From Ostrinia nubilalis (Eukaryota > Arthropoda > Insecta > Lepidoptera > Crambidae), in NCBI RefSeq assembly GCF_963855985.1, contig NC_087119.1:784001-848000 (forward strand): 64,000 nt of DNA, read 5' to 3'. This document shows positions 8,224-56,786 of the stretch, in pieces (within the stretch, counting starts at the first letter, position 1; every line of letters starts with the position of its first letter). The notes under the pieces were generated by a model. The model did not search any database, was not told the origin of the DNA, and worked only from the letters and a program-made list of their open reading frames with translations. The position numbers and the translations under genes were made by a program.

Positions 8224-9093
8224 CATGTGCAGCGCGTACGCCAGGATGCGCATCGTGTAGGCGGGCAGGTTGAGCACCACGAAGACGGACGACACGATCA
8301 GCAGCATGCGGGTGATGCGGTTCTGCGAGCGCGGGCAGCCCACCACGCGCGCCACGCGCCGGCCCGCCGGCCGCTCCGCCTTCACCAGCTGCGTGCGCGC
8401 GCGCTCCAGCCGCCACACGCCCGCCATGATCCACGAGTTCAGCACCACGATCACCAGCAGCGGCAGCGTGAACGAGACGCCCGTGTCGATGATGTTGAAC
8501 CGCGCCGCGTGCTCCAGGTAGTTGTAGTCGATGTTGCAGTCGTTGGTCGTGGGCGTCGCGAAGCGCAGCACCGGCAGGTTGATGAGCAGCGAGGCCAGCA
8601 CGATGGACGCGATGATGTGCCGCGCGCGCGCCACCGTGCACACGGCGTTCCTGCGCAGCGGGTACAGCACGGCCACGAACCGCTCCACCGTGAACGCCAC
8701 CACCAGCCACGCGCTCAAGCAGCTCGTCACGTACGAGGTGTATACGAAAACTTGACAGAAGCCCGGTTCGTGGAAAACCCCCGTTATACCCAACGCGTTC
8801 AACCACGGGGGCAGAAGCTGAACTAGAAATACGGAATCTGAGATCGCCAACGCGGACAAGTACTGGCTGGTCGATTGCAGTCGGAGCTTGCTGGTGAAAA
8901 AGACGGAAACGCACATTCCATTTCCCAGAAGTCCGAGAAGGACTAACATGGGAGTGTAGTAGATGTTCAGCGAGCTCGCTACTTGATCCGCGACATAATC
9001 GACGAGCGTGAGGTTCGGGTACGTGAAGTTATCGAGCACGAAAGTTTCGTACAAACTGTAGTTAGAGTAGTTGCCTGTTATGAGGTCGGCCAT
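8224..9093 (-). CDS. Rhodopsin-class neuropeptide-receptor-like GPCR, first coding exon (partial)
   Basis: The exon encodes 290 residues, reading from ATG at 9093 (good context, GAGATGG) to a phase-0 donor, CATG|GTAAGT, at 8223. The N-terminus has four N-glycosylation sequons (N8, N11, N22, N27). TM1 carries the GN motif (N58), TM2 the LAxxD-type aspartate (D86), and TM3 starts at C113 and ends in E137-R138-F139, a DRY-type box. ECL2 has C186 to pair with C113. TM5 has P211, and TM6 has L-N-L-P-A-Y where most family members have CWxP. TM4 lacks the usual tryptophan. This makes it a seven-helix peptide receptor; the NLPxY TM6 recalls insect FMRFamide-receptor or TRH-receptor-like orphans, but I cannot name the ligand. 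TM7 and the tail must come from a further exon. A GC-rich block covers the exon, and the antisense and alternative-frame ORFs over it are by-products of that composition. It probably lies inside a fry intron on the opposite strand. Confidence 0.88.
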
Positions 9094-18380: not shown

Positions 18381-21060
18381 GTTCTATTTTACACGCAATT
18401 TTTATGTTTTTTCTCATGATAAGAACCTTCCTTGAAAACCGTTCTCAAGTTTTGCGCTTAACAACACAATCTGCGGTAAACATTATTTAACATCAGCCAT
18501 CAAAGTTTTAATGCTGCTTAAAGAACCTGCAATGTTGCTACATTTTCATAGAAAAACAAGATTTAGAATAGGTACAAGATGTAAAAGCAGTAGAGTGTTA
18601 AAATAAGAAAATCTTAGGTATTTACTGCCTTACGTTTCCACGAACCGCTACCACTCTTGTGTGAGATGGAAGAAAGTGCCTGCAAATGGCACTCTAAAGT
18701 ATTAGAAAGCTGTTTCGTCGTTGAAAAGACGGATAGCTGTGTTTTTTCGGTTGTACCTACACTTATGATTGTCTGTTTGGATATATTCCTGTAGTCTAAA
18801 TGGCTTACCTAGTATAATGTTTGTGCGATGTTTAATTAGACTTGACTTCATCTCGGGGGATTTCGGGTCTCTAAGCTGCCTCGAAGGGTACAAGAATATT
18901 CGTAGAAGAATGATACAATATTAATAGGTTTCATTATACCTACACCTACAAGTCGGAGTATCAGAAAAAATAAAATAATATCATTCATTAAATATGAAAT
19001 AATTTATGTATGTATAAGTTACCTCTAATAAAGTATGGTGACAATTTGCTCTGTCGTGCTAATCACACATGTAAGTAGTTGTGACTTGTGAGCAAGTACG
19101 AACTCTCATAAGTATGATGTTCCTAAGTAACATGCAAAGTTGAATTTGTTTTATATCGTGCTTGGAGTTACTTTTGCTGAACTCATAAGGCTATTTACTT
19201 GGCTTTATAGCAAAGTTCGTTAACTACAAACGATTTATTACGATTAGAGTAATATGAGATAAATGCCGATGAAAACAGTTCGTGTGTAATAAGCTGCATC
19301 AGGGCTTAAAACCATTGCAATATGAGCCACTTTACGTGAAATTGTGTTGATAACAAAATGGAGGCCTTGAATGGAATCCGCGTAAACCAAACAAAGGTAC
19401 GTGAAACTAAAAATAACGAACTTGCCGCAGCTCTGTGATCAAAAGGGGGCGTTTAAAATAGGTTTGACATAAAAGTCATGTACGGCAGGGGGCGGACGCG
19501 GGGCAATTAAACAAAACCACCGGCGCTGGCGACGGGTGAACAAAGCAAGTGGCGCAGATTTTGTTGGCGGACACAGTGGCTAATAACAAAGAGACAAAAA
19601 AAACTGTAACCCGACTATGGAAAAAATCGACTCGTTCGGATTTGATGATTGTGCGTTCAATTTAAAATGTGGCCTATGTTACTCGGGTCATAACAACAAA
19701 TGGATTGACACCTTACTGATTAAATTCGGATGAATAGTTTAGGCGCTATAGAGAAACATACTTGATATTTTACCTCAAAACATAAATCGCAAGGTCCACA
19801 AGAACATTAGAAGTATGTTATGAGCCTCTAAAACTTAAACTGTTTGACTCCTTGTACAAGATGATCGTCTGACTTGACGGGAAGTCCCAAGCTTTGATTA
19901 TAAAGTTGATGCCTTTACTTGAAGGAGCGCATTGATATCACAGTATTATGTTATCTAATGTGCTAATATGGAGACAGTTGGACGGCGCTTCTCGTGCCGA
20001 GTGCGTTAATAAAACGAGATTAATCCAACTTCAATCGGAAGAAACATCAACGGAAGTTTTCTGTTGTATTTATTTTACAGTCAGCGATTTGAAGCATGAA
20101 TAAGTATTGGCGATATTGCTTTCATTGTCCTGAAAAATAGCTAACCTTAAGTCCTGATACGATATATATTTTTTTATTTCAATAAATGCTGGGCACCATA
20201 AGTAAAGAAAGACAAATTATACGATCTTTATGTGCGTAGTGACCATACTGTAGTGACCCCTCGTTGAGTCTTCCTTTGAGCATGTGCTGGATACGCAGTT
20301 ATGAAAAGGCAAAAGGACATTCTGTTTTCAGAAAAAGTAAACAGGCACGGTGCACCCCTCTTGTTTGGAGTGCCTGCAGGTTATTTTTTATTCTGATGCC
20401 ATATTTGAAGGGTCTTTGCATGAGAGTAAAAACATTCATCCGTCCATCATAGACGATGACCAGTAACTGTTCGATGATTTTATTTATTTACTCAAGTGTT
20501 TTTTTACGTTAAAAAAGCTTAATTTAATTTTAATAATAACATTCCTGGCTTCCTTTTACGTTGGCGTTGCTTTATCGAAGCAATATCAATAATTAATTAT
20601 GTATTAATTAATATAATACAGCACATATCTGTAATAATACCAACATAATTTATCTATTCAATCGTGTTCTGTGAAAACGGTAAAATTGATTGAATATGAC
20701 TTTGTGTGCGCGCTGTTCAAAGTAATAATTGCTTTACTGAAACCACCGCATTGATTCGGGGAAAATTGGGTTAAGAATATACCTATCTGTAAACATTTTT
20801 AGGAATGTCGACGGTCATTCGGTAGCTTTGCGTCAGTCGGCAATTACCTCTTAAATCGAATGACATGTCTCGTCGAGTCAGATTTAAATGTTCGTGCCGT
20901 TTATCTTTTTTTTTATTTTTTTTATTTTTCTTTATTATTATTTATTCCACGGCAAATGACTTTTGAAGCAAGACAGCCTGTCTTAGAGGAGGGCCGACCC
21001 CAAATGGAAGAAGGTAGAGAAGTAGAATAAAGTACTGAATGTTTTTTCTGTTTGCCGCAG
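18381..21060. other. fry: End of the fry intron upstream of exon A
   Basis: No exon is seen before 21061. A polypyrimidine-rich run lies at 20906-20935, and a fragment near 20940-21020 (ending GGGCCGACCCCAAATGG) resembles a lepidopteran retroelement 3' region. The intron ends with TTTTTTCTGTTTGCCGCAG, a good acceptor. Confidence 0.45.
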
Positions 21061-21183
21061 GTTCGGAGAAGGAGCGCGGCACGCTGGACGCTCTGCTGTG
21101 CACCACCTACTGCCGCTCGCAGCTGTACCTGTCCCGCCAGCTGTCCCAGCTGCATCCCGAACTCACCATGCCCATGTTCTCAG
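21061..21183 (+). CDS. fry: Furry exon A (internal exon)
   Basis: This 123-nt exon lies between the acceptor TTTGCCGCAG at 21060 and the donor G|GTAAGC at 21184. It starts two bases into a codon and ends one base into the next. It encodes [18 protein letters not shown] and continues to PELTMPMFS, which I recognise as a block of the Furry N-terminal region that is strongly conserved among animals. Furry is a giant HEAT/ARM-like scaffold that binds and promotes NDR-family kinases (Tricornered/Warts type) in cell polarity, hair and dendrite patterning, and it associates with microtubules in vertebrates. The GC-rich codons contrast sharply with the AT-rich flanks. A fold-back transposon begins only 23 bp after the donor. 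Confidence 0.93.
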
Positions 21184-26339: not shown

Positions 26340-26356
26340 GTATTATATTTTATTTT

Positions 26357-26760
26357 TAGGGTTCCGTACCTCAAAAGGAAAAACGGTACTTTTATAGGAT
26401 CACCTTATTTTCCGTCCGTCTGTCAAGACCCTTTTTCTCATGAACACGTGGACGTATAAAGCTAAAATTTTTACCAAATACTCAAGTCTACCGTCCCTTA
26501 GATTTGTGAAAAAATCAAACTTCTAAGCCAACGTAATCAAAAGATACAGCCGTTTATGCCGCAAATTTCTGCAAATTTATGACACTCACAAGGGAATCAA
26601 AACCTACGGAGTACTTCCCGTAACTCAAAATCTTGTGGTACGAAGCAAAGTCTTATGGCACAACCACGTCTTAAATCATTCCAATCAGAAAATTAATAAT
26701 ATCATCACGCAGATGCATTAGTTAACCATCGATATAATAGTTTTTACAGTTAAACCATTG
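26357..26760 (+). repeat. Dispersed lepidopteran repeat with AGGGTTCCGT head
   Basis: It begins AGGGTTCCGTACCTCAAAAG, continues with CTTATAGGATCACC- and CCGTCTGTC-type motifs, and runs into GATACAGCCGTTTATG. This arrangement recurs widely in moth and butterfly genomes, which is known rather than tested here. No coding sequence is present. The right boundary is approximate. Confidence 0.55.
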
Positions 26761-27001
26761 ACGACCAAATCAAAATAAAATTAAAACTAAACGCTAAAAC
26801 TAATTTCTGGTTACCACGGTAAAAGTTTTAAATCTTTCACGTTCGGCACTAAAATGTTATAAAAATAATATTTCTGCTGTAAGCTATTTTCAGCCTTACT
26901 TTGCCTTCTTATTTTCCGTTTGTAAATTAAGAATATTACAGATTAATTCATGTTCAAAGACAAGTTTTACTGGAAAAGCTTATTATTAGGTACTTACGTA
27001 C

Positions 27002-27095
27002 CTTTTTTGCTGAAACGGCGGTTTCGTGGGCCGCCGGCGCCGCGCGGTCGCTGTATACTGCCTCGGAGCCAGATTGCTTGCCGCCTTTGCCTCGT
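27002..27095 (-). ncRNA. Exon cassette U6 of the minus-strand exon array
   Basis: It lies after the acceptor CTTTCAG and before AAG|GTACGT (a second donor, GTAAGT, lies 4 nt further on), giving a 94-nt exon. It starts ACGAGGCAAAGGCGGC, matching the ACGGCGCAAAAGTGGC start of cassette U1. It is the most GC-rich cassette and open in all three frames, which high GC explains. It is probably an exon of a noncoding transcript. Confidence 0.55.
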
Positions 27096-27177
27096 CTGAA
27101 AGAAACCAGTAAATTTAAAAAGAAATTCCAGAAAATTATAAATTATTTTCTAATCTAATCTTAGTTCCTATCCTTAC

Positions 27178-27252
27178 CTCATTATTCAAGGAAATGTAGT
27201 CGCAGTGACTAGAAAATGTTCGTTATTACAATTTTACTCGGTCTTCGATTAC
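27178..27252 (-). ncRNA. Exon cassette U5 of the array
   Basis: This 75-nt cassette lies between the acceptor TTTGTTTCAG and the donor GAG|GTAAGG. All three frames contain stops. Its following intron shares the GAATTT-CTTTTTAAA-TTTCAG layout with the other introns, so exon and intron were duplicated together. It is the shortest and most diverged cassette. Confidence 0.5.
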
Positions 27253-27336
27253 CTGAAACAAAATAGTCTGTTTAAAAATAAATTCAAGTATTTTACATAA
27301 GATATATGCACTGATTATAATATTTTTTATCATTAC

Positions 27337-27437
27337 CTTACGGCTCCAAAGGAGGTGCGCAGTAAGTTTAAGTACGTAGACACGGGAACTTGAAGATATT
27401 CCTCGCGCTCTCCCGACATCATTGGCTTGTGAGTCTT
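27337..27437 (-). ncRNA. Exon cassette U4 of the array
   Basis: This 101-nt cassette lies between the acceptor ACTTTTAG and the donor AAG|GTAATG. Its second half (TTCCCGTGTCTACGTACTT, then ACTTACTGCGCACC) aligns well with cassette U2. One frame is open throughout, but it does not continue through neighbouring cassettes. Confidence 0.55.
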
Positions 27438-27511
27438 CTAAAAGTAATTAAACTATTAAAAACAATCCCATAAAATACAAATAGATAAATAATAATGATT
27501 CATAGACTAAC

Positions 27512-27604
27512 CTTAGGGTTCCAGGACAATTAGAAAGCTCGTAGGTAGAGCAAGTCTTGTAATAAATTACTTGCTCTCTTCCAATATATCATTTTGGGTG
27601 TCAC
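27512..27604 (-). ncRNA. Exon cassette U3 of the array
   Basis: This 93-nt cassette has the acceptor ATGCTTTCAG and the donor AAG|GTTAGT. It shares TTGGAAGAGAGCAAG with U1 and U4 and a CCTGGAACCCTAAG end with U2 and U0. All frames have stops. Confidence 0.55.
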
Positions 27605-27685
27605 CTGAAAGCATATAATTTATTTAAAAACAATTCAACAAAATCTACAGTAGTATTTAGGTCTAAATATTATTCGTAGCCTTAC

Positions 27686-27797
27686 CTTGCGGATCCAGAG
27701 CGGGTACGCAATAAGTTTTCAGGAATAATATAGACGCGGGAGCTCTAAATTGTCATATGACTTATTCAATAGCTCCAATTTTCGCCATTTGCTTAAT
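27686..27797 (-). ncRNA. Exon cassette U2 of the array
   Basis: This 112-nt cassette has the acceptor ATTCTTTTCAG and the donor CAAG|GTAAGG. It begins ATTAAGCAAATGGCG, matching U1, and ends CTCTGGATCCGCAAG. The frame that would match U4 contains two stops, so the repeats do not encode a conserved peptide. Confidence 0.55.
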
Positions 27798-27879
27798 CTG
27801 AAAAGAATTACTCTAATAAAAAAAAATTCATGTATATAAAAAAGTATTATCTTGTCTTAACATTATTAATATCCTTTAC

Positions 27880-27979
27880 CTTGCCGTTTCAGAGTAAGCT
27901 CACAGGACTTTGAGGTATTATTTCCGCTGAAACTCGAGAGCAGGCTTGCTTACTTCCAACATCGCCACTTTTGCGCCGT
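27880..27979 (-). ncRNA. Exon cassette U1 of the array
   Basis: This 100-nt cassette has the acceptor AATCGCTTTCAG and the donor CAAG|GTAAAG. Its start, ACGGCGCAAAAGTGGCGATG, is the clearest version of the shared 5' block, and its end, CTCTGAAACGGCAAG, the shared 3' block. All frames have stops. Confidence 0.55.
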
Positions 27980-28086
27980 CTGAAAGCGATTTAAATATTT
28001 AATAACCCCTCTTTGATAGGTAAAATAAAATCTAGAATATATTATAGAGATTCATGTTCTGATTTAAGCATAATTTATATGCTTAC

Positions 28087-28450
28087 CGATGGTTCCGAAA
28101 AAACTACTCAGCAAGTTCAAAGTGCATATGAAGACGCGGCCGCGAATTCGTTAAAAAGCTTGCCCACCAAGACAATAAATTCATTCACAGTATATTAAAA
28201 CTAATTAAGACATTGTAATTATATTTTAATTACATTTTTTTTTTAATTTTGTCTATTCGGTGCGATTTTTTTAATTTGCAACTGCGACTGCATTCAACGC
28301 GCGCGGAAGTAGCGGGCCATCGCGCGGGTCATCGACGCGGATATTTGACTGCACTCGCTGGCGGGCACGCACCGACTAGCGAGACAGGCAACGCAGCGCT
28401 GCAAGCACTAGCTACGCACTCGCTATGCCTGTGTATCAAACAAGGGAGGG
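28087..28450 (-). ncRNA. Presumed first exon and CpG-rich start of the array transcript
   Basis: The donor CATCG|GTAAGC at 28086 ends an exon whose last ~50 nt (GTCTTCATATGCAC, ACTTGCTGAG, TCGGAACCATCG) align with the 3' block of the cassettes, so it is a further copy, U0. Upstream at 28270-28450 is a CpG-dense patch unlike its AT-rich surroundings, which fits a promoter or first exon. It contains only short reading frames (12-26 codons). The 5' end is not determined. Confidence 0.4.
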
Positions 28451-29866
28451 TTGGTGTACTGTACTGTGATGCGCGAAAGTGCTGTAATTAGCAAAAATTA
28501 ATTGAGTAGTCTGACCCACAATGTTATATTGTAAAGCTTTTGTTTTTTTTATTTTAATCTTTATTGTTTTTATGGTACGTAATAGTATAAGTTTGTATAT
28601 TTATATTATGCATTATTGCGCAATGGTTTGTAATTACAAACGATCATAAAATAAGTTGGTAAATCATGTATTTTTATAAATGGCTACTTGTGAAAACTGT
28701 CTTATTGGTTTCTGGAGAAGATTTAAAAAAAATTTGCTTTTCAGTTGAATAATCAAGACCTCTTGAATTTTAAATGAAAACATCCCCCCATTAACCATAA
28801 AAATATCATCTTGAAAAATGGTTTATTTAAACATTTTGTAAGTTCATTGACCCGATGGCAATCATTAGAATACCGCTGAAGGCATATATTGTGATGAGTA
28901 CAATACAACTTCTGCAAATATCTCTTTTATAAATTTCCGATAGGTAAATAATTGGTTCAAGTATGCCACAATATTTCAACTGGATGATAAGGACCGATTA
29001 AGTTAAAGTCCGAACCAAAAGTTCAGCGTAAAAAATACTTTATCGATAAAGTAACCGTTGCATTTGAAACGAAGCGACTAAGCGTCTGGACTCCAGTCCC
29101 AAGTAAGGCTTAAACCAAGGGAGACGTGTGTTTAGCACAGACACCTCAAACACAAGCTTTTCTTAGGTTGAGTTGCGCCACCTAACTTTGACGATAACTA
29201 TAACGATAACCGGTGCTTTTTGTATGCAGTAACGTTTGTCAAAGGTAAAGTAAGATGGTGCATGCAACCCATCCTTAAAGTAACAATTGAAATAAATCCG
29301 ATCATGCTCGAGGTGAACTTTGACATAGCCAATCTTTTCCAAATATCTGAGCACGCATTCCTCCGTGTAGAGCCGGTCACGAGCGCGGGCGTGAGCTTAA
29401 TATAAGTTCAGTGGTGGGCTATAGACAATATTCTACCGGAACATCTTCGACACTTTTGTGAAGTCTCAAAATATATTTTTCAGAAGTAGTGGTCGTGGGT
29501 TACATAGTTTACATAATAAGTACAAATATTTTATTGTAGTACATAATATGACTACTCATTAATAGCTGGCAGTTTTTCAGCAACATGCCCAATTCCACGT
29601 TACGTCCATAATCACCGGCAGTGAACCTATAGATTTACTCCGTGCAAATCAATCGTAGCGTACTGTAATTGAGACACGAGTTCATTTGATGAATTCATTT
29701 TATTTTGGCCGCCACAAATTATTACATTTGGATATTTCATTCGTTTTGGTATTGTTTTCACGTTTCAATTATTACTTTTGTGAATTTCCATATGGATAAA
29801 TGTTGTCCTAAACAAGTATTCAAACGTATGCGAAAGTTCTAGCGCTTGTAGATCCCGAGAAGTTTA
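28451..29866. other. fry: fry intron, no gene recognised
   Basis: This is AT-rich sequence without recognisable exon or repeat boundaries. Open frames near 29163-29405 exist on both strands over the same bases and carry no domain similarity. Confidence 0.4.
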
Positions 29867-32629: not shown

Positions 32630-33477
32630 CGTCGTCGTCGTTTCAGCCGAAAGACGTCCACTGCTGGACAAAGGCCTCCCCCAAGGATTTCCACAAAGAC
32701 CGGTCCTGCGCCGCTTGCATCCAGGTACTTCCCGCGACCTTCACCAGATCGTCGGTCCACCTAGTGGGAGGCCTGCCCACGCTACGTCTTCCAGCTCGTG
32801 GTCGCCACTCAAGAACTTTTCTGCCCCAGCGGCCATCAGCTCTTCGAGCTATGTGCCCCGCCCACTGCCACTTGATTTTAGCGATTCTGCCGGCTATGTC
32901 AGTCACTCTGGTTCTCCTACGGATCTCCTCATTTCTGATTCGATCACGCAGGGAAACTCCGAGCATAGCACGCTCCATCGCTCTTTGGGTGACCTTGAGC
33001 CTTCTTATGAGGCCCATAGTAAGCGACCACGTCTCAGAGCCATACACCATCACTGGCAACACACACTGGTCAAATACTTTTGACTTGAGACACTGCGGTA
33101 TTTCGGACGTGAGAATTTCGCGAAGCTTCCCGAACGCTGCCCAGCCGAGTTGGATTCGACGATTAACCTCTTTCTCGAAGTTGGACCTACCTAACTGGAC
33201 TGTTTGTCCCAGGTATACATAATTGTCAACAACTTCGAGTGTAGTGTCTCCAACCTTCAGAGGAGTGGGTACAACACGGGCATTTGACATAATTTTTGTC
33301 TTGTCCATGTTCATTTTAAGACCCACTTGTTGAGAGGCTCTACTGAGGCCATCGAGCATTGTGTTTAGGTCCTCCACGGTCTCAGCCATGACTACGATAT
33401 CGTCCGCGAAACGAAGGTGGGTGATATACTCGCCGTTGATATTTATGCCGAATCCACTCCAGTCCAGAAGCTTGAAA
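32630..33477 (-). mobile_element. 5'-truncated RTE-type LINE
   Basis: It is flanked by an 8-bp duplication TATCGAAT (32622-32629 and 33478-33485). The minus-strand 3' end is a CGA-repeat tail, as in RTE-clade LINEs whose tails are short tandem repeats and not poly(A). It contains only the C-terminal part of the polymerase ORF. The 3' end, CAGCAGTGGACGTC followed by GGCTGAAA, is shared with the other RTE fragments in the window. Confidence 0.9.
32643..33476 (-). pseudogene. RTE LINE reverse transcriptase, C-terminal fragment
   Basis: About 277 uninterrupted codons run to the natural stop after WTSFG. Near the start is HLRFADDIVVMAET, which contains the F-A-D-D catalytic box of LINE reverse transcriptases, followed by GLKMNMDKTKIM and VYLGQTV, typical of the palm and thumb. 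The C-terminus has a WAGHIARR and GRPPTRWTDD section that is characteristic of RTE elements. The endonuclease and most of the RT are missing through 5' truncation, so it cannot function even though the remaining frame is intact, which suggests a fairly young insertion. Confidence 0.88.
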
Positions 33478-33485
33478 TATCGAAT

Positions 33486-36400
33486 ATTCAGTCAATAATA
33501 TGGTGAACGAGTAAATAGACTGTAAACAAGAATTTCGTAGAAGACCTAAGTTTCCAAAAAGTAAGGGTTTAAGTAAACAGTCGATTTATTATTATTATTC
33601 TATTCACTAATTACCGAAATCCAAATACCTTACCTCGCTGTATTTTTGTATTTGGTAAAAAGTGTTTACCAAATTAACTTAACAAATAGGGTGTTTTATC
33701 GGCTTGTAACTGATATACCTATATCCTGATGATGCACGGCCGCATCTGTGCACGATTTACGAAACTAGATCCAGCTAACTCGGTTAGCGCTCGCTAACGT
33801 GCCGCCGCCGTGCCGCGGGTGCCGTAACGTCATCAATCCGCCCGATCTTTCGGTAAACCGATATTCGGCTCAAACTCGGGAACGGCAAATGTTTACGAAA
33901 AATTATGAGTCGACGATAAATCTCTTTATTGAAAAGACTGATAATAATTCCAATTCGAATGGGATTTATTACTTTCGTTTTTTGATTTCGTGAAATGTTT
34001 ACATAAAACTGTAATGTGTATTTAATTATAAATAATTATAATCACATCGTTCGTTAAAATATTCCATTACTAGAGTTGATTTTCTTTTCCCCAGATTATT
34101 TTCATCCACCTTTGACTAAAAGGATGTCTTAATTTTTTTTATTTGGCTGAAACTTGTCTCCTTCGGGTCTCGAAAAAGAGAAAATATCGTCGTGCTCAGA
34201 ATTCCACCTCATTAGCCCTAGCATGTTCCTTTGCCGCCACTTCGGGCGCGTTCCAAACTAATAAGCTCGGGGCTCTTCTTAGCGCTCGCACAATCGAACG
34301 TGTGTCAATGCAGCAAATGCTCAAGTTCCAAGCAAACGCTCATTAGAGGCACGGCACGGTAATGCCGCTGTTTGGCGCTCGCAGGGGACTTTGTACCTTC
34401 AAAGGCTTTATTCTATTTAGTGTTTCTGAGAATTACCTATTAAATTGAACATCAAACGCTCGGATCCGTGCATTAGGTATGCTTATGAATGATTTACACA
34501 GTGTAGGTAAGTATTCACATAAAATCAGAATTCTTAATACCTACTTACCTAAAACGTTTGACTAGCAAAATATACTTTGACTTTGACTATTTATATTTCT
34601 AGGTTCTATTTATTTAATAGTCCGCATCACACGAAGCTGAAAAATATTGTTTTACTATTTGCCTTTGCTCCGTAGCGAGGGTCGTAGCTTTCTCACAACT
34701 CAGCAGAATCTTTCTGTCATCGAGTAACTGGGCCTTTCGAGGTCTCGCTTTTGTTATTGGATCAAATAGCCAACGGGAGCGTCTGCCTTTATTTTTAGCT
34801 TCAAATACAAAGCATTACTTAAAACCTGATATCCGTTGGATATATTAAGATTTCAGTTGATTTGAACTATAATGAAATATAATTACAGTGAAAGTAGTCG
34901 GTTTAAAGTCAGTTTCAAATAACTGCCTGTAACTGAATAATTGCGAAACCTTTTAAGGCTTATTAGGTTCTTCCAACGCTGGATGCTATTTCTTTAAATC
35001 CTGCAGCGAAATATTCCAAAGCCCTAGTAAAGGTCAACACACGGTAGCTTCATACTGTAGACAGTGCGTGTAATCTCCAGCCAAAAGGTACGTTCCGAAC
35101 CAGTGAGTAGATGTAAAAGCCCTAGTGCTAAAGTTTAATCGAAACAATGTCTTTGTCTCTGGGCCATTTACACTAAACTTTATTATTTTCTCGTGATCGT
35201 AGTAAACAATATCAATATATTTTGATAGTACAAAAATAGATGTTATTGAAAGAACTCTGAGAATCGTGTGCTATTATGTTGTATTTAAAGTATTTTATAA
35301 AAAAAAACAATTGAAAGTTATAAAAATATTCAATAGCCAATAAATACCACAACATTTGTGGAAATCCCAAAAGTGTTCACACTGAAAGAATGGGACGTGC
35401 CGACAATAGCGTAATTGTGTATTGTTATGTGTTCGTTTGTGATATGGTTTCCAAATTCCCGGGACTCGAACGCACGGGGCCGAGACAAACGCTTTTCATG
35501 TCCGATTGTGACTACAAATAGTTCAGAAGACCCGCGCAAGTGTCAACAATATTTCAATCTTCATTTCATCCCTTTTGGCCACACATCAAATCTGAATGTG
35601 GAAGTTCGTAATATAATTTTTTCGGAGGAATTCAATTCTTCCATTTCTGAGATTCGATAGGGGAAGGAGTGACTTAATAATAGATGTTCATTTATAAATT
35701 TGAATATAACGCTGTAGCTTAACAAAAAAGGCGTTAAAAGTTTCTATGAAAAAAACTTGAGATGATTTTAAAAGGTGTTAATAGGTATACTGTAAAATTG
35801 CCACATTTTGTTATTAATAAAAAAAGATTCGATGATTGCCATGTTTGTAGAAAAACAAGGATACAAACATCTCCGATTTAATCCTTTTGGAAAATAGATT
35901 CCAGTGAACATTTTGACTACCTAGGTATATGTACTTAACAATAGCGCTTTCACAAAGGATTCACTTACCCAAAATGATCAGATATTTTATTTAAATTCAT
36001 CAAGTCAATATTCACTTAGATTTAAAGCTAAGTATGGTAATTATCTTGATGAAGATGCTTTGATGCTATTATCAGTGAACCGTGATCGGTTGTATTAATA
36101 AGACAATAGCAATGTCCATCAGTGCGTCGCACGCCGACCTGACATTCTGCCTGCAATCGCTGATATCTTAGCCGACAGAATCGGCGGTGGGATTGAATTC
36201 TATAACATGATCACACTTACTAAATACCGTATTATTAATTAGCCTGACGTACGTAACACAATATGTCTTATCATGTTAGAGTAAATTGCTCACTGTAATT
36301 AACTGCAATTTAGCTTCAGGGGATAGGTAAATAGATATCTTGATCTGTGTCTGCCCAAAGTTAAGTGAAACATTAAATCGAGATCTATTGGAAAATATTA

Positions 36401-36967: not shown

Positions 36968-38660
36968 TTCATCAGGCATATTGATAGAGATATTGTAATG
37001 TAGGTACGCACATACATTGCCGTGCAAGTCTACTTATTTTTCGCCCTTTACAAATAACTATTAAAAATTGATGTTGCAGTAACCTCGTTCGTTTCAGCCA
37101 TAACCAATAACCATACTGCAGTAATTCACGTAAACAAAAAACAGCTACTAGTATTTGTGCCTCGACATAATAATTTAATAAAATTGTTTGACACGAACTT
37201 CTTAATATACTTAAGTATGTAATACGCAATAAGAAGCTTTGGGTACGTTTAAAATTTAAGCTTACAAGGGTATTAGATATCTTAAAATGTAAATAGGCTT
37301 TGATGCTGTGGATAAATTGTAGGCAATAGAACCTTTATAGTATTGAAAAAAAAATACGAAGCTCCAAAAATATGAATATTTTTAAATCAATAATGATCAA
37401 AATATCTGCGCATTTATCTATGAAAGACTTTCAGGGTTACGCGTAATTCCTTTGCAAATACTGCCCTCGCCCGTCCCTCCGAGAGGTGGAGAGACTACTA
37501 CGCAGTTTGGTTTAACCCTCGCTAAAAATTGCCCCGGATCGGGTGCGAGATGAAAATAAAATGTTGTATGTAACAAATACAAAAGTAATTAGTAGGTTTT
37601 AAGTAATAAGTAGGTTTTACTGAAGAGAAATGAAGCTAATAAGAGGCCACTGCCGCTCAAATTCAAATTATTTTATTGCATGTCACATGGGTACAGGTTG
37701 ACAGAACATAATATTATTCGCTCCAGTCCAATAATATTATTAGCTGCAGTGCACTACATAATAATTGAAACTAGTAGTATTTAATAGTTATAATTCCGTA
37801 CCTATGTGTTGTAGGTATAGATAAATGGCCGAATAATATGAATTTCATAGAATAACCAAAATTGTATTGATAAAGTTTCAAATGATTTTGAATGAATGTT
37901 AGTTACTGTTATTAAGTACTATTGTGGCCACCTGTATTTATACTGTTGTGTTGGTTTATTTAATATGTATAATTGGAATTCATAATATTTATCTTTTCTG
38001 GCAATAAATGCCATACATTTTTTCCTATTTATTATACTGTAAACATTATACCATCATACGGATTCTATTATAGTTAAAGTAATGGTTCGTGGAACGTCCC
38101 TTCATGTTCCTCTCGAGTACCAATACATTATACATAATTAAAAACAAATAAAAAATCTACTAACTAAGCACAGCACAGACAAAATGCCTTCAATGTAAAA
38201 CAAAAGGTTGTTAAAGGGAAAATTGGATTTTACTCGCCATATTCTGTCTGGTATGTTTCTGTAACTAAACGCGCGCCGCCGTCGGCCATTTATTTTTGTG
38301 CACGAATGCACGGAGTTCCCTTACGACGGTATTTACCTCGAATATTCGCTTTGCGGGCATTTGTTACGCAAAAAAAATTTTTATGTAGTACAAATTCATA
38401 TGCTATGTTACCTGATCGTTCCGCGAAAGGATCTTTACAAAAATACTTCATTCGAGACATGAACTTCGATTTTAGTAGCTTTGAAATCAATAAGAAAATG
38501 ATAAATAATCGCGAAGTAATGACGTCAAGACATCCTTTACGTGACATATAATTTATGAGAGAGACGCGTTTTGACAGCCCATAGAAACATCAAAGTAGTC
38601 CTTGTTATCCACAAAGGGGAATCTCTTGACCGGTTCTATATTGGCTCACATAAAATTCTA
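36968..38660. other. fry: fry intron, no gene recognised
   Basis: No exon is seen. A fragment near 37657-37745 (CAAATTCAAATTATTTTATTGCATG) resembles the ends of lepidopteran retroelements, but it is too short to class. Confidence 0.35.
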
Positions 38661-40130: not shown

Positions 40131-40144
40131 TATGTTTGTTGCAG

Positions 40145-40278
40145 AAATAACGGCGCGCTTCCAGACGGCCCGCACCGAGGTGCGCCAGCTGCTGCTGCAG
40201 TACCTGCTGCCGTGGCTCGTCAACATCGAGCTGGTGGACCCCAACGTGCCCCCCGCCAACCCGCTCTCCTACATCGAG
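40145..40278 (+). CDS. fry: Furry exon B (internal exon)
   Basis: This 134-nt exon lies between the acceptor TTTGTTGCAG at 40144 and the donor GAG|GTAACC at 40279. Its first two bases complete the codon begun by exon A, giving E-I-T at the join. It then reads [20 protein letters not shown] and onward to [15 protein letters not shown], which is near-invariant in animal Furry proteins, and it ends in phase 0. The segment belongs to the helical-repeat N-terminal half. The upstream intron is about 19 kb, and the acceptor lies directly behind a SINE tail. Confidence 0.95.
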
Positions 40279-42557
40279 GTAACCTTTGACCTTTGCCCCA
40301 CTGGAACTACTACGATCCCATCAGCTCTCGTTGCCATCACTGCAACTCCTAGCGTTATCTTCTATCCTAAGCCACGATAGCCTTATGGGGAAGGGGTCGG
40401 ACTGGCCGACTAGTGGGCCGAGGAGCGCGGGTCCAAACCACGCCGCAGCGCAAGGCAGAAAAAAACTCTTTAACTCGGCGAGGAACTACTACGGGATTGA
40501 CCCTACCCCTCGGTCACACCACTACTACTTCTGAATAGTTAAGATCTAAAGTCACTAATGCAATCCAAACAGTGAAAGTTGATAGTCCTGAGAACTGAGC
40601 TGAGCAGACTAGTATTTCTATGAATCTGGTAAAAGAACTCTAATAAAAATACGGATTTCAACCCAGCATGACTCTGAAATTAGCAGTAAGTGAACTGTTT
40701 GGGAATAAACAACAACACCGTTAACCAAGCCCCACTTGCCGAGTGTGCATGACACGCAACTAATTAATTACGCACGCATCAACAGTTGTCCAGGCCAGTG
40801 CGAGATTGAGTTATCCTGAATATTGACTCGAATGACTAGTAGCATTAAGCTTGTTTATCAGTTGCCTAAGATGAAAATCCGAGAAAAATTTCGCACCTAT
40901 TTTTATAGAAATACAATTTCTATCTTTGTTTATGTGGAGGATGCCAATAATTTCACTTTTCTCGAATACAACTTTACTCGTAGTGAGTCTGCCAATCGAA
41001 AACCAATAGAGAGCCAATTTGAATTGCTTCTGCCTCGACACCTGAAAACGAATTTCGATTATATATCCGACGTCTGGTTTATTTCCAATGTGGCAAATTG
41101 TTTGTATAACACCTTCGCCTGTTGCAAACATTGAAAAAGTTGCGACAACTACAAATTGTCTACGGTACGGTCAAGATGCAAGTAAATTGACTAGTCGATG
41201 GAGGCGCATGCCGTGACATTGGCAAAGGTCGCTCAAAGAAAGTGCAGAAACTCCGTATTAAATCACATTTGCACCTCAACCCTCCAGTTTATAAGCGAAA
41301 AATGTTTTCAGAAATCTTGTAGTTGTTTACCAATTATTTCATCTCAAAATGAGTCCCCTTCGTCAATTGACGTTAAATGTAATGAGAACACAAATATTAG
41401 TACGAAGTACCTTTATCACGCATGATCTATCATTACTCTAGTTATTAACTAGAGCATTCAGAATTTTACATAACAAGCTCACAGATTTTTTGGTAATTGA
41501 TCAAATAACCTTTTCATTAACCTTCGGAGCTTTTGAAGATTTTAACGTTCCAATTAAGTAATGAGTGCGTCTCGCTTCTCATTAACACTCGGCTGTACAA
41601 ATAAAGGTTCACTCGATACGGGGCGCGCGATAACAGGTGAGGAATGGTGGACGATAAATTGCGATAGCAATGGAACGCTTTACGCTTTCCGAAACAATGC
41701 CGCCTTTCAGCCAGGACATCAAAGGCTGACCTTGTCGAGGCGTGATGTTTTACTTCGATTGGAGACACAGCGATTTGTATTGTAAACCTGACGCCCCACA
41801 TTACAATTTTTTTTATATATTTGATATTCTACATTCTAAAATATTTATAGAAACGTTTTATTGTTACAAAAACAAACATTATGAGCTTTATTTACTACCT
41901 ACTTAGAAAATACTCCTACATGCAGAAACTAATGAGAATAATGTCTATTTTGGATCGCCCTCTACACCATGTTAAGTCCTTAGACTTATTTTAAGAATAT
42001 TGAAGTAGATAAAACCAAACTAATGACGTGTATTAATAGGAAAATACAACCTTTCTCATTGAAATGCTATTTTTTCCTGTCCATTAATATTTAATTTTCA
42101 TTATAAACGATATTTCCTGTTAAGTTGTCCGAATGTCTTTAAATAGTTTCGTCCAAGAAAACTATTAAAAGACACGGGGTTATAACATTTCCATGTGTAA
42201 TCCCAGATAAAAAATAGCCTTAAGATGTTTGTTCTTTTACTTATTAAATAATAAAATGATTCACTCCTCTTCTAAAAACAACACTGTGCCTCATGCATTA
42301 ACAATAAATTTTAAAGAAAACAATTCAGTAGAGTAAAAAAATATTTTTAAAGTAAGAGTTGCGTGTTAAGGCTAGTTAAGAGGCGTGAGTGCAAAAATAA
42401 TAGCGTGTAAGTAGCGTGAAAGCTGCGTGTTGGCGTGAAGCTCGCAGCTCGTTCCGTGCTTTCGGCGGCGCTCGCCCGGAACTGAGCACTTGAGCTGCGA
42501 GCAACAAGTCCCGCAGTTTAATAGAGCAGAGGAATAAACTGAACACACTCTATAATG
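40279..42557. other. fry: fry intron between exons B and C, first part
   Basis: No gene is seen. A GC-rich patch at 40381-40535 may be a retroelement fragment. Frames at 40811-41134 are open on both strands and lack domain similarity. A GCGTG-rich patch at 42361-42515 contains GCTCGCAGCTC and its inverse. Confidence 0.4.
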
Positions 42558-44219: not shown

Positions 44220-44899
44220 CAGGGTGGAAACGATAAGTGATCTCACTCGATTATTTCTAAACTAGGTATACAAGATATCAATAAACTAGTTACTGATTCT
44301 GAAAGTGCTTTATAAGCTCTATCAAACAGTATTAATAATAGGTTACAGAATAAACTGGATCTATCCGAAAATTCAATGTTTCCAGCTTCCATACATTTGG
44401 TAAAGTCACATTATTTCAAAAACTACACATGATATCGTAAAACTGATTACTGATTCTAAAAGTGCTTCTCAAGCTCTATCCAATGGTATCAATAATAGGT
44501 TACAGAATAAACTAGTTCTATCCAAAAATTCAATGTTTCCTTCTTCCATACATTTTGTACTACCACATTCATGACACTCATCTCTTGACAATATTATAGC
44601 AAGTAAAGCCCAAAACCAATGTTTTCCATGAATAATTTGAAATAAGAATACAATTTTCGAGTTTATTTTAAGTTTATTATTAAATAAAAAAATTACACTT
44701 CTAACATTGTGTGTCTGGCATACATTTAGTATGGAAGCTGGAAACATTGAATTTTCTGATAGATCCAGTTTATTCTGTAACCTATTATTGGTACTGTTTG
44801 AAAGAGCTCTTGAAGCACTTTCAGGATCAGTAACCAGTTTTTCAATATCTTGTATAGTTTAGAAATAATCGAGTGAGATCACTTAACGTTTCCACCCTG
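44220..44899. mobile_element. Fold-back MITE with a duplicated arm
   Basis: The ends are CAGGGTGGAAACG and its complement, flanked by TA on both sides. The left arm (44220-44394) and the inverted right arm (44729-44899) share about 170 bp, including ATCTCACTCGATTATTTCTA and GGTTACAGAATAAACT. A third, direct copy of the inner part of the arm lies at about 44422-44556. There is no transposase. The first eight bases match the ends of the MITEs at 29869 and 57300, so they may share a transposase source. Confidence 0.85.
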
Positions 44900-55909: not shown

Positions 55910-56111
55910 CATCATCATCTCAGCCATAGGACATCCACTGCTGAACATAGGCCTCCCCCAATGCTTTCCATGTTGCCCGATGGGGCAGCAAGGTTCTGGA
56001 GTGGAGGCTGGGTACCGGAAAACGAAGCGTGGGACGTCCACCCACAAGGTGGACCGACGACACCATAAAGGTAGCAGAAAGGCGCTGGACGCAGGCCGCT
56101 ACCAACCAGGC
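55910..56111 (-). mobile_element. Twin-primed RTE LINE fragment (inverted 5' part)
   Basis: It is flanked by perfect 12-bp direct repeats, AATAAATTCATT (55898-55909 and 56112-56123). The part to about 55976 is the minus-strand RTE 3' end, reading to ALGEAYVQQWMSYG and stop, with a short TGA tail. The part from about 55984 reads on the plus strand as the preceding RTE segment (VLEWR, GRPPTRWTDD, RRWTQAA). A 5' half inverted relative to the 3' half inside one duplication is the signature of twin priming. Confidence 0.88.
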
Positions 56112-56123
56112 AATAAATTCATT

Positions 56124-56786
56124 ATTGCAGTGTAATTTCAAAATAATTCAACCATTATTTACAAAATCTTTATTTGGAAAACTTTTGTTTTACAATAGCT
56201 ATTTATAATTTCAAATACTAACAGAATTCCATGAATTGGTTAGCCTAGCCAGTATCCTTGAAGTTTTTCTTGCTGATTGTTATTGTGAATTTTCATGACA
56301 GTGAGCGAGACTTGCTTATGTTTGCTTTAGAATGAAATAATCACTCATAATCCCACACTTCTTCATCCACTGTCTGAAAAAAGAAAGAATATTATTTAAA
56401 CACAATTATAAATATTACAATTACATAAACAGTTCATAAATAGAAACATTTACTTAATCCTATTTGTATTTTAAGTTTACATACAAAATGTTGATCATCA
56501 ATATTATTACACAGTGAAAGAACTATATGAAATAAATATAGGAAAGAAGGTGAAAGCTTATTTGTAGGAATAAAGATATTTTTCCTTTTCTCTGGTGCTG
56601 TTACTTATGAAAATCAAGATGTGTCTATAGTCTAAAATATTAGCTATACTCCAGCTAATATTTTAGACTTTAGGTACTTACTTTGCTACTTATGAGTGTA
56701 ACTTTATTTCTCAAATCTCAATAAACTTTCTGACTGCTTCATGTAAGTTGAATAATTACTGTAAACCTCGCATTAAGGGATAGGTA
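56124..56786. other. fry: fry intron, no gene recognised
   Basis: AT-rich. A small inverted pair, AATATTAGC-TATACTCCA-GCTAATATT, lies near 56637-56663. Nothing else is seen. Confidence 0.4.

Follow-up and report, generated by a model that had tools for sequence, protein, structure and literature searches.

The 64,000-nucleotide (nt) window of Ostrinia nubilalis DNA analysed here, whose first base is position 1, carries on its minus strand a genuine, old tandem array of exon–intron units that have retained their splice signals, and which is probably a long non-coding RNA (lncRNA) gene. It is moderately likely that the array forms the body of a minus-strand non-coding gene, nested in an intron of the furry gene, selected for being spliced and playing a role in cis at furry. 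The evidence for this reading comes from the layout of the array, from the homology of its units, from what has and has not survived their divergence, and from the genomic setting.

Followed down the minus strand, the array opens with unit 0 (28087..28200), an exon copy of GC 0.39 with a 3′ end at 28087 and an uncertain 5′ end, where a weak acceptor-like TTAATTAG (score 8.0) precedes 28200. Its donor is ordinary, equalled or beaten by 18% of minus-strand GTs. Six complete exons follow: exon A (27880..27979, 100 nt), exon B (27686..27797, 112 nt), exon C (27512..27604, 93 nt), exon D (27337..27437, 101 nt), exon E (27178..27252, 75 nt), and exon F (27002..27095, 94 nt). The introns between them are 0–A (27980..28086, 107 nt), A–B (27798..27879, 82 nt), B–C (27605..27685, 81 nt), C–D (27438..27511, 74 nt), D–E (27253..27336, 84 nt), and E–F (27096..27177, 82 nt). 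An initial annotation made from the same DNA had proposed this architecture, and its exons, TTTCAG or TTTTAG acceptors, GT donors and intron lengths are all found where it placed them. Exon lengths are mixed modulo 3, and stops close all three frames of A, B, C, E, and the unit 0 stretch 28200–28087. Exon D is open in two frames and exon F in all three. The introns are short and even (74–84 nt in five of six), with T-rich 3′ ends and fair to good donors. Their GC content, 0.18–0.25 in all six, stands against 0.35–0.64 in exons A–F, such that every exon is GC-richer than every intron.

A row of this kind exceeds chance. Under simple splice rules (exons of 60–130 nt, introns of 65–115 nt, donor score at least 5, acceptor score at least 8.2), the longest chain of complete cassettes is six on the minus strand, namely A–F, and two on the plus strand; with the array taken out, the minus strand yields a longest chain of one. 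No chain was longer than two in 300 shuffles, 150 of the whole window and 150 block-wise. As these thresholds were set only once the sites of the array had been scored, they favour the array, yet six is far above two.

Homology searches indicate that the six units 0 and A–E descend from one exon-plus-intron unit and that the array is genuine. The proposal that exon and intron were duplicated together is thereby borne out for these six, both by profile searches and by shuffles. When each unit was sought with a whole-unit profile built from the other five, the tested one omitted, the E-values were 1.1e-8 for unit 0, 2.8e-8 for A, 3.6e-14 for B, 1.4e-4 for C, 9.8e-13 for D, and 5.3e-6 for E. Unit 0, described at first as a partial cassette, is by the same test a true copy, and a profile of A–E also finds it at 28150–28022 (E-value 2e-9). 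Since the intron layout alone might mimic homology, letters were also permuted inside 8-nt blocks with the splice sites kept; for all six units, none of the 300 position-preserving shuffles reached the real score. Profiles of the exons alone are far less sensitive. They recover B (6e-5) and D (2e-4), give 0.17 for unit 0 and 5.0 for E, and do not match A or C, so that for A, C, E, and unit 0 the evidence comes largely from the 3′ part of the exon together with the intron. Exon E in particular is a copy by its whole unit and not significant by itself. Compared pairwise and untrimmed, exons A–E form ten pairs, among which AB, AC, AD, BD, and CD beat all 300 shuffles; BC, BE, and CE were reached by 13 to 20 of the 300, and AE and DE by more than 100. 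Blocks shared at both exon ends had been claimed as well. The left-out matches set in within the exons and extend chiefly over their 3′ portion and the intron; the supposed 5′ block corresponds to the opening 20 nt of exon A, matched without gaps at 5 to 9 of the 20 positions in B–E and at 13 of 20 in F, and is not confirmed. The part of unit 0 between 28125 and 28161 (minus strand) strings together HindIII-, EcoRI-, NotI-, and NdeI-like sites within ~40 nt and resembles a polylinker; a vector origin was rejected, as the stretch aligns with the other cassettes, and the likeness is taken as coincidence.

Exon F, counted earlier among the duplicated cassettes, is not a detectable copy, good as its splice sites are: it is recovered by no profile match, whole-unit test or shuffle test. 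Its five exon pairs were reached by 30 to 145 of 300 shuffles untrimmed, and by 13 to 94 of 300 with six bases cut off each end. The intron that precedes it is a copy. With a GC content of 0.64 and 13 CpG the exon does not look like the cassettes. Two overlapping donor-like sites (GTACGTAAGT) follow it. The degenerate unit suggested further along at 26905–26960 was found by neither profile, and profile searches of the 64-kb window detected no further significant cassette copy. The strongest match outside the array, at 38430–38393 on the minus strand, had a best E-value of 0.044 over the left-out profiles and was taken as chance. Tandem Repeats Finder did not report the array and listed there only a 22-nt repeat at 27099–27142; a gap-free repeat finder returned only short families and no whole-unit repeat. 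We take it that such programs miss the array because its copies are too diverged.

That divergence is considerable. The units lie ~0.2–0.5 substitutions per site from their root, and outside the splice columns their near-star tree totals 2.06 substitutions per site for A–E and 2.47 with unit 0. The corresponding totals are 2.76 (3.11 with unit 0) from exon columns only and 1.64 (1.84) from intron columns only. Mean pairwise identity outside the splice columns is 0.46 in exons and 0.60–0.62 in introns, where it may come in part from skewed base composition. If a Heliconius mutation rate of ~2.9e-9 per generation is assumed to apply and used to date the array, 0.4 substitutions per branch would correspond to more than 100 million generations and to tens of millions of years, a figure good only to an order of magnitude.

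Against this background GT and AG are invariant in all six units, in agreement with the earlier statement that splice sites are intact in every copy. Neutral drift simulated on star trees of length 1.64, 2.06, and 2.47, with two base compositions, left five units with all their GT and AG dinucleotides with a probability of only 5e-5 to 1.6e-3. Core splice columns are invariant in 10 of 17 cases versus 24 of 131 elsewhere (p 0.0007), a count that omits columns with fewer than four letters and the 21 columns at −9 to −30, nine of them invariant; when the latter are returned to the rest, the comparison becomes 10 of 17 versus 33 of 152 (p 0.002). Once GT and AG are set aside, the excess is marginal, at 6 of 13 versus 33 of 152 (p 0.055, or 0.03 with the −9 to −30 columns omitted). 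These p values are optimistic, since the cassettes were picked for having GT and AG. Acceptors were aligned by construction; donors are internal to the alignment, so nothing forced them into homologous columns. The selection of cassettes by their splice signals, together with the marginal excess beyond the dinucleotides, is what speaks for an old tandem repeat of no function, spliced or not, in which splice signals persist by luck or by the reader's choice. The low retention probability, the cassette chain and the compositional contrast of exons and introns count against such a repeat, and we regard it as quite unlikely.

The copies show no coding signal. Mismatches between exon copies, taken over all pairs of unit 0 and A–E, lack 3-periodicity, the observed value being matched or exceeded in 1404 of 2000 shuffles. 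In a spliced model of 819 nt the longest ATG frame runs to 33 codons, a length reached by 424 of 500 shuffles. Nine open pieces searched against Pfam gave no match. A patchwork query, for which only proteins of ~110–350 aa were eligible, found no match at E-values up to 10 among 178 word-sharing candidates from ~5.8 billion proteins. Since stops interrupt every frame of A, B, C, and E, the copies are not open in a common phase. These results weigh on two coding explanations. The array could be a decayed protein gene with tandemly duplicated coding exons, as hinted by parts of units 0, B, and D that align by eye as similar peptides in one frame and by the two open frames of D; mismatches free of codon-phase bias, exon lengths mixed modulo 3, and the lack of a match for the nine open pieces in Pfam or for the patchwork query among the 178 candidates all count against it, and neutral decay should moreover have destroyed the splice sites, which makes this origin improbable. 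Alternatively, a live coding gene might use D, and perhaps F, with the other cassettes serving as alternative or poison exons. Skipping E does create a 60-codon frame that runs through D and F and is still open where F ends, but such a join is expected by chance, given that F is open throughout and that the longest ORF of shuffled transcripts averages 48 codons. Coupled with the lack of a protein match in those searches, this leaves a live coding gene very improbable, though with D and F open a small coding product is conceivable. Mutually exclusive exon clusters of the Dscam type also consist of tandem exon-plus-intron copies, coding and kept in phase. The array resembles them in its tandem copies with intact splice sites and departs from them in its mixed lengths modulo 3, its closed exons A, B, C, and E, and its lack of codon periodicity.

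Nor does a conserved RNA fold emerge. Introns and most exons behave like their shuffles in folding, with z between −0.71 and 1.06 for the six introns; over all 13 folded segments, z ranges from −1.93 for exon C, where 7 of 200 shuffles were as good, to 1.21 for exon A. No consensus pair was found in the aligned introns A–B to E–F. Aligned units A–E gave six weak pairs with an energy of −0.18 and one compensatory change, and conserved RNA structure was rejected on that showing. No Rfam family reached its gathering score in the window, and between 26500 and 28700 the only match was a chance one to osmY (E-value 3.8). Mirtrons and snoRNA host genes likewise have short introns in series, those of snoRNA hosts lying between non-coding exons. 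The array shares this seriality but differs in that its introns have neither a better-than-shuffle nor a consensus fold, and no Rfam match. Mirtrons or hairpin introns were rejected on these folds and a snoRNA host on the Rfam result, which an undescribed snoRNA would escape; a tRNA reading was rejected after a tRNA check.

The setting of the array is informative as well. Four plus-strand exon pieces, at ~21.1, 40.2, 43.7, and 52.1 kb, match positions 588–704 of the Pfam family MOR2-PAG1_mid when joined (E-value 1e-9), above the curated cut-off. Taken singly they give weak Pfam matches, and two of them searched singly against the PDB found none. Given what is known of human FRY, we take these pieces to be exons of furry (fry), and the first two to be adjacent exons. 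By the joined match and their open reading frames, the furry exon before the array would span 21057..21183 and the next recognised one 40144..40285, both on the plus strand and with ends approximated by eye. With furry pieces thus recognised on either side, the array (26.9–28.2 kb) is, as judged from sequence, antisense within a furry intron of ~19 kb.

Upstream of unit 0 lies a candidate promoter, proposed on composition (28201..28490, minus strand). The CpG-rich patch that the initial annotation had pointed to is real: at 28290–28420 it has a GC content of 0.64 and 19 CpG, and it ranks equal third among the window's non-overlapping 130-nt patches. A core promoter motif to go with it did not turn up, as a scan from 28620 to 28150 met neither TATAWAAR nor TCAGTY; GCAGTC occurs at 28352 and 28291. 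At the other end, a speculative terminal exon (26354..26848, minus strand) can be drawn from the next acceptor of good quality (score 8.8), which would open the exon at 26848, to an AATAAA beginning at 26354.

F is followed by a good donor, a hint that the transcript continues, and this raises the question of whether the cassettes are 5′ UTR exons of a gene with its coding part further down the minus strand. A coding exon does exist in that direction. At 8224-9093 (minus strand) lies the first coding exon of a neuropeptide-type GPCR, recognised by its similarity to an Ostrinia furnacalis protein of 425 residues named "thyrotropin-releasing hormone receptor-like", from which it differs at 1 of 290 residues; the next organism-named matches are from other Lepidoptera. 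Shortly upstream of its ATG are a TATA-like CTATAAAAG and a CACAGT site. Given these motifs directly before the ATG, the GPCR gene seems to be served by a promoter of its own. Its relative P0001 begins at that methionine too, and a 5′ UTR of the GPCR was rejected on both counts. A transcript from the array would also have to cross a furry exon to reach it. Nearer by, minus-strand ORFs of at least 60 residues between 21 and 27 kb, a bound that misses shorter ones, include no clear coding exon by eye. A 5′ UTR role for the cassettes is therefore unlikely.

The favoured reading thus remains a nested non-coding gene, and its history would run as follows. Long ago, one small exon with a minimal intron was presumably duplicated in tandem at least five times, within a short span as judged from the star-like tree. 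Exon sequence would afterwards have drifted and collected stops and indels that break the frame. Donors and acceptors, by contrast, were retained, as were the T-rich 3′ ends of the introns and their short lengths. We infer that the RNA would begin by the CpG-rich patch at ~28.3 kb, pass through units 0 and A–E and then exon F, and terminate further on, possibly around 26.35 kb. Since retention concerns splicing signals rather than exon sequence, a coding frame or an RNA fold, efficient splicing would be the selected property, most likely because it sustains transcription or chromatin activity in cis at furry. The earlier suggestion of selection for splicing of a non-coding RNA is partly supported in this respect: it fits splice dinucleotides kept over a tree of ~2 substitutions per site, the GC contrast, and the lack of coding periodicity. 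A more specific version, in which the lncRNA functions by being repeatedly spliced, with exon letters at liberty to change, the number and quality of its serial minimal introns kept, and several rounds of spliceosome recruitment over ~1.2 kb acting in cis on furry, is tentative and on the doubtful side.

Published lncRNAs offer partial parallels. Multi-exonic lncRNAs are reported to have GC-rich exons and splicing-linked selection (PMC4338330), exon GC exceeds intron GC in insect lincRNAs (PMC5494802), and splicing of enhancer-associated lincRNAs is described as contributing to enhancer activity and cis regulation (PMC7035876). It is because retained splice-ability fits the accounts in PMC4338330 and PMC7035876 that a nested non-coding gene with splicing-supported furry activity is favoured here. 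The array has the marks of multi-exonic lncRNAs: no long ORF, exons GC-richer than introns, and retained splice sites. It resembles the lncRNAs of Haerty and Ponting (2015) in combining GC-rich exons, preserved splicing features and little base constraint; that work differs in presenting genome-wide statistics, and its abstract does not mention tandem exon–intron arrays (PMC4338330). For repeated non-coding exons, the nearest precedent found is the mammalian Firre/FIRRE, as described in PMC4820808, where a repeat domain (RRD) accounts for 7 of the 13 exons in human and overlaps 11 of the 23 in mouse, and serves to retain the RNA in the nucleus. The array would resemble it in that many exons of a single non-coding RNA consist of a locally repeated sequence, but its exons have drifted, and what is repeated is an exon together with its minimal intron. 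A conserved exonic repeat domain like that of Firre is not seen, with exon identity at 0.46 and exon-only profiles recovering two of six units. Among the literature matches listed, the texts at hand describe no tandem exon–intron array in an insect non-coding gene, which does not prove that none has been described.

If transcribed, the locus would allow a within-locus test of lncRNA selection, setting splicing signals against exon sequence across six diverged copies, and it would be an insect case of a non-coding gene grown by exon–intron duplication. Should splicing itself prove to be the function, tandem exon–intron duplication would offer a non-coding gene a means of gaining further splicing events.

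The window holds other repeated sequence. Reverse transcriptase ORF fragments of a LINE-like element occur at 32643-33491 (minus strand; RVT_1, E-value 8e-9) and at 55951-56208 (plus strand), the C-terminal peptide of the latter resembling the former by eye. Tandem Repeats Finder also reports a 157-bp tandem repeat at 44283-44569, with 1.8 copies and 84% matches.
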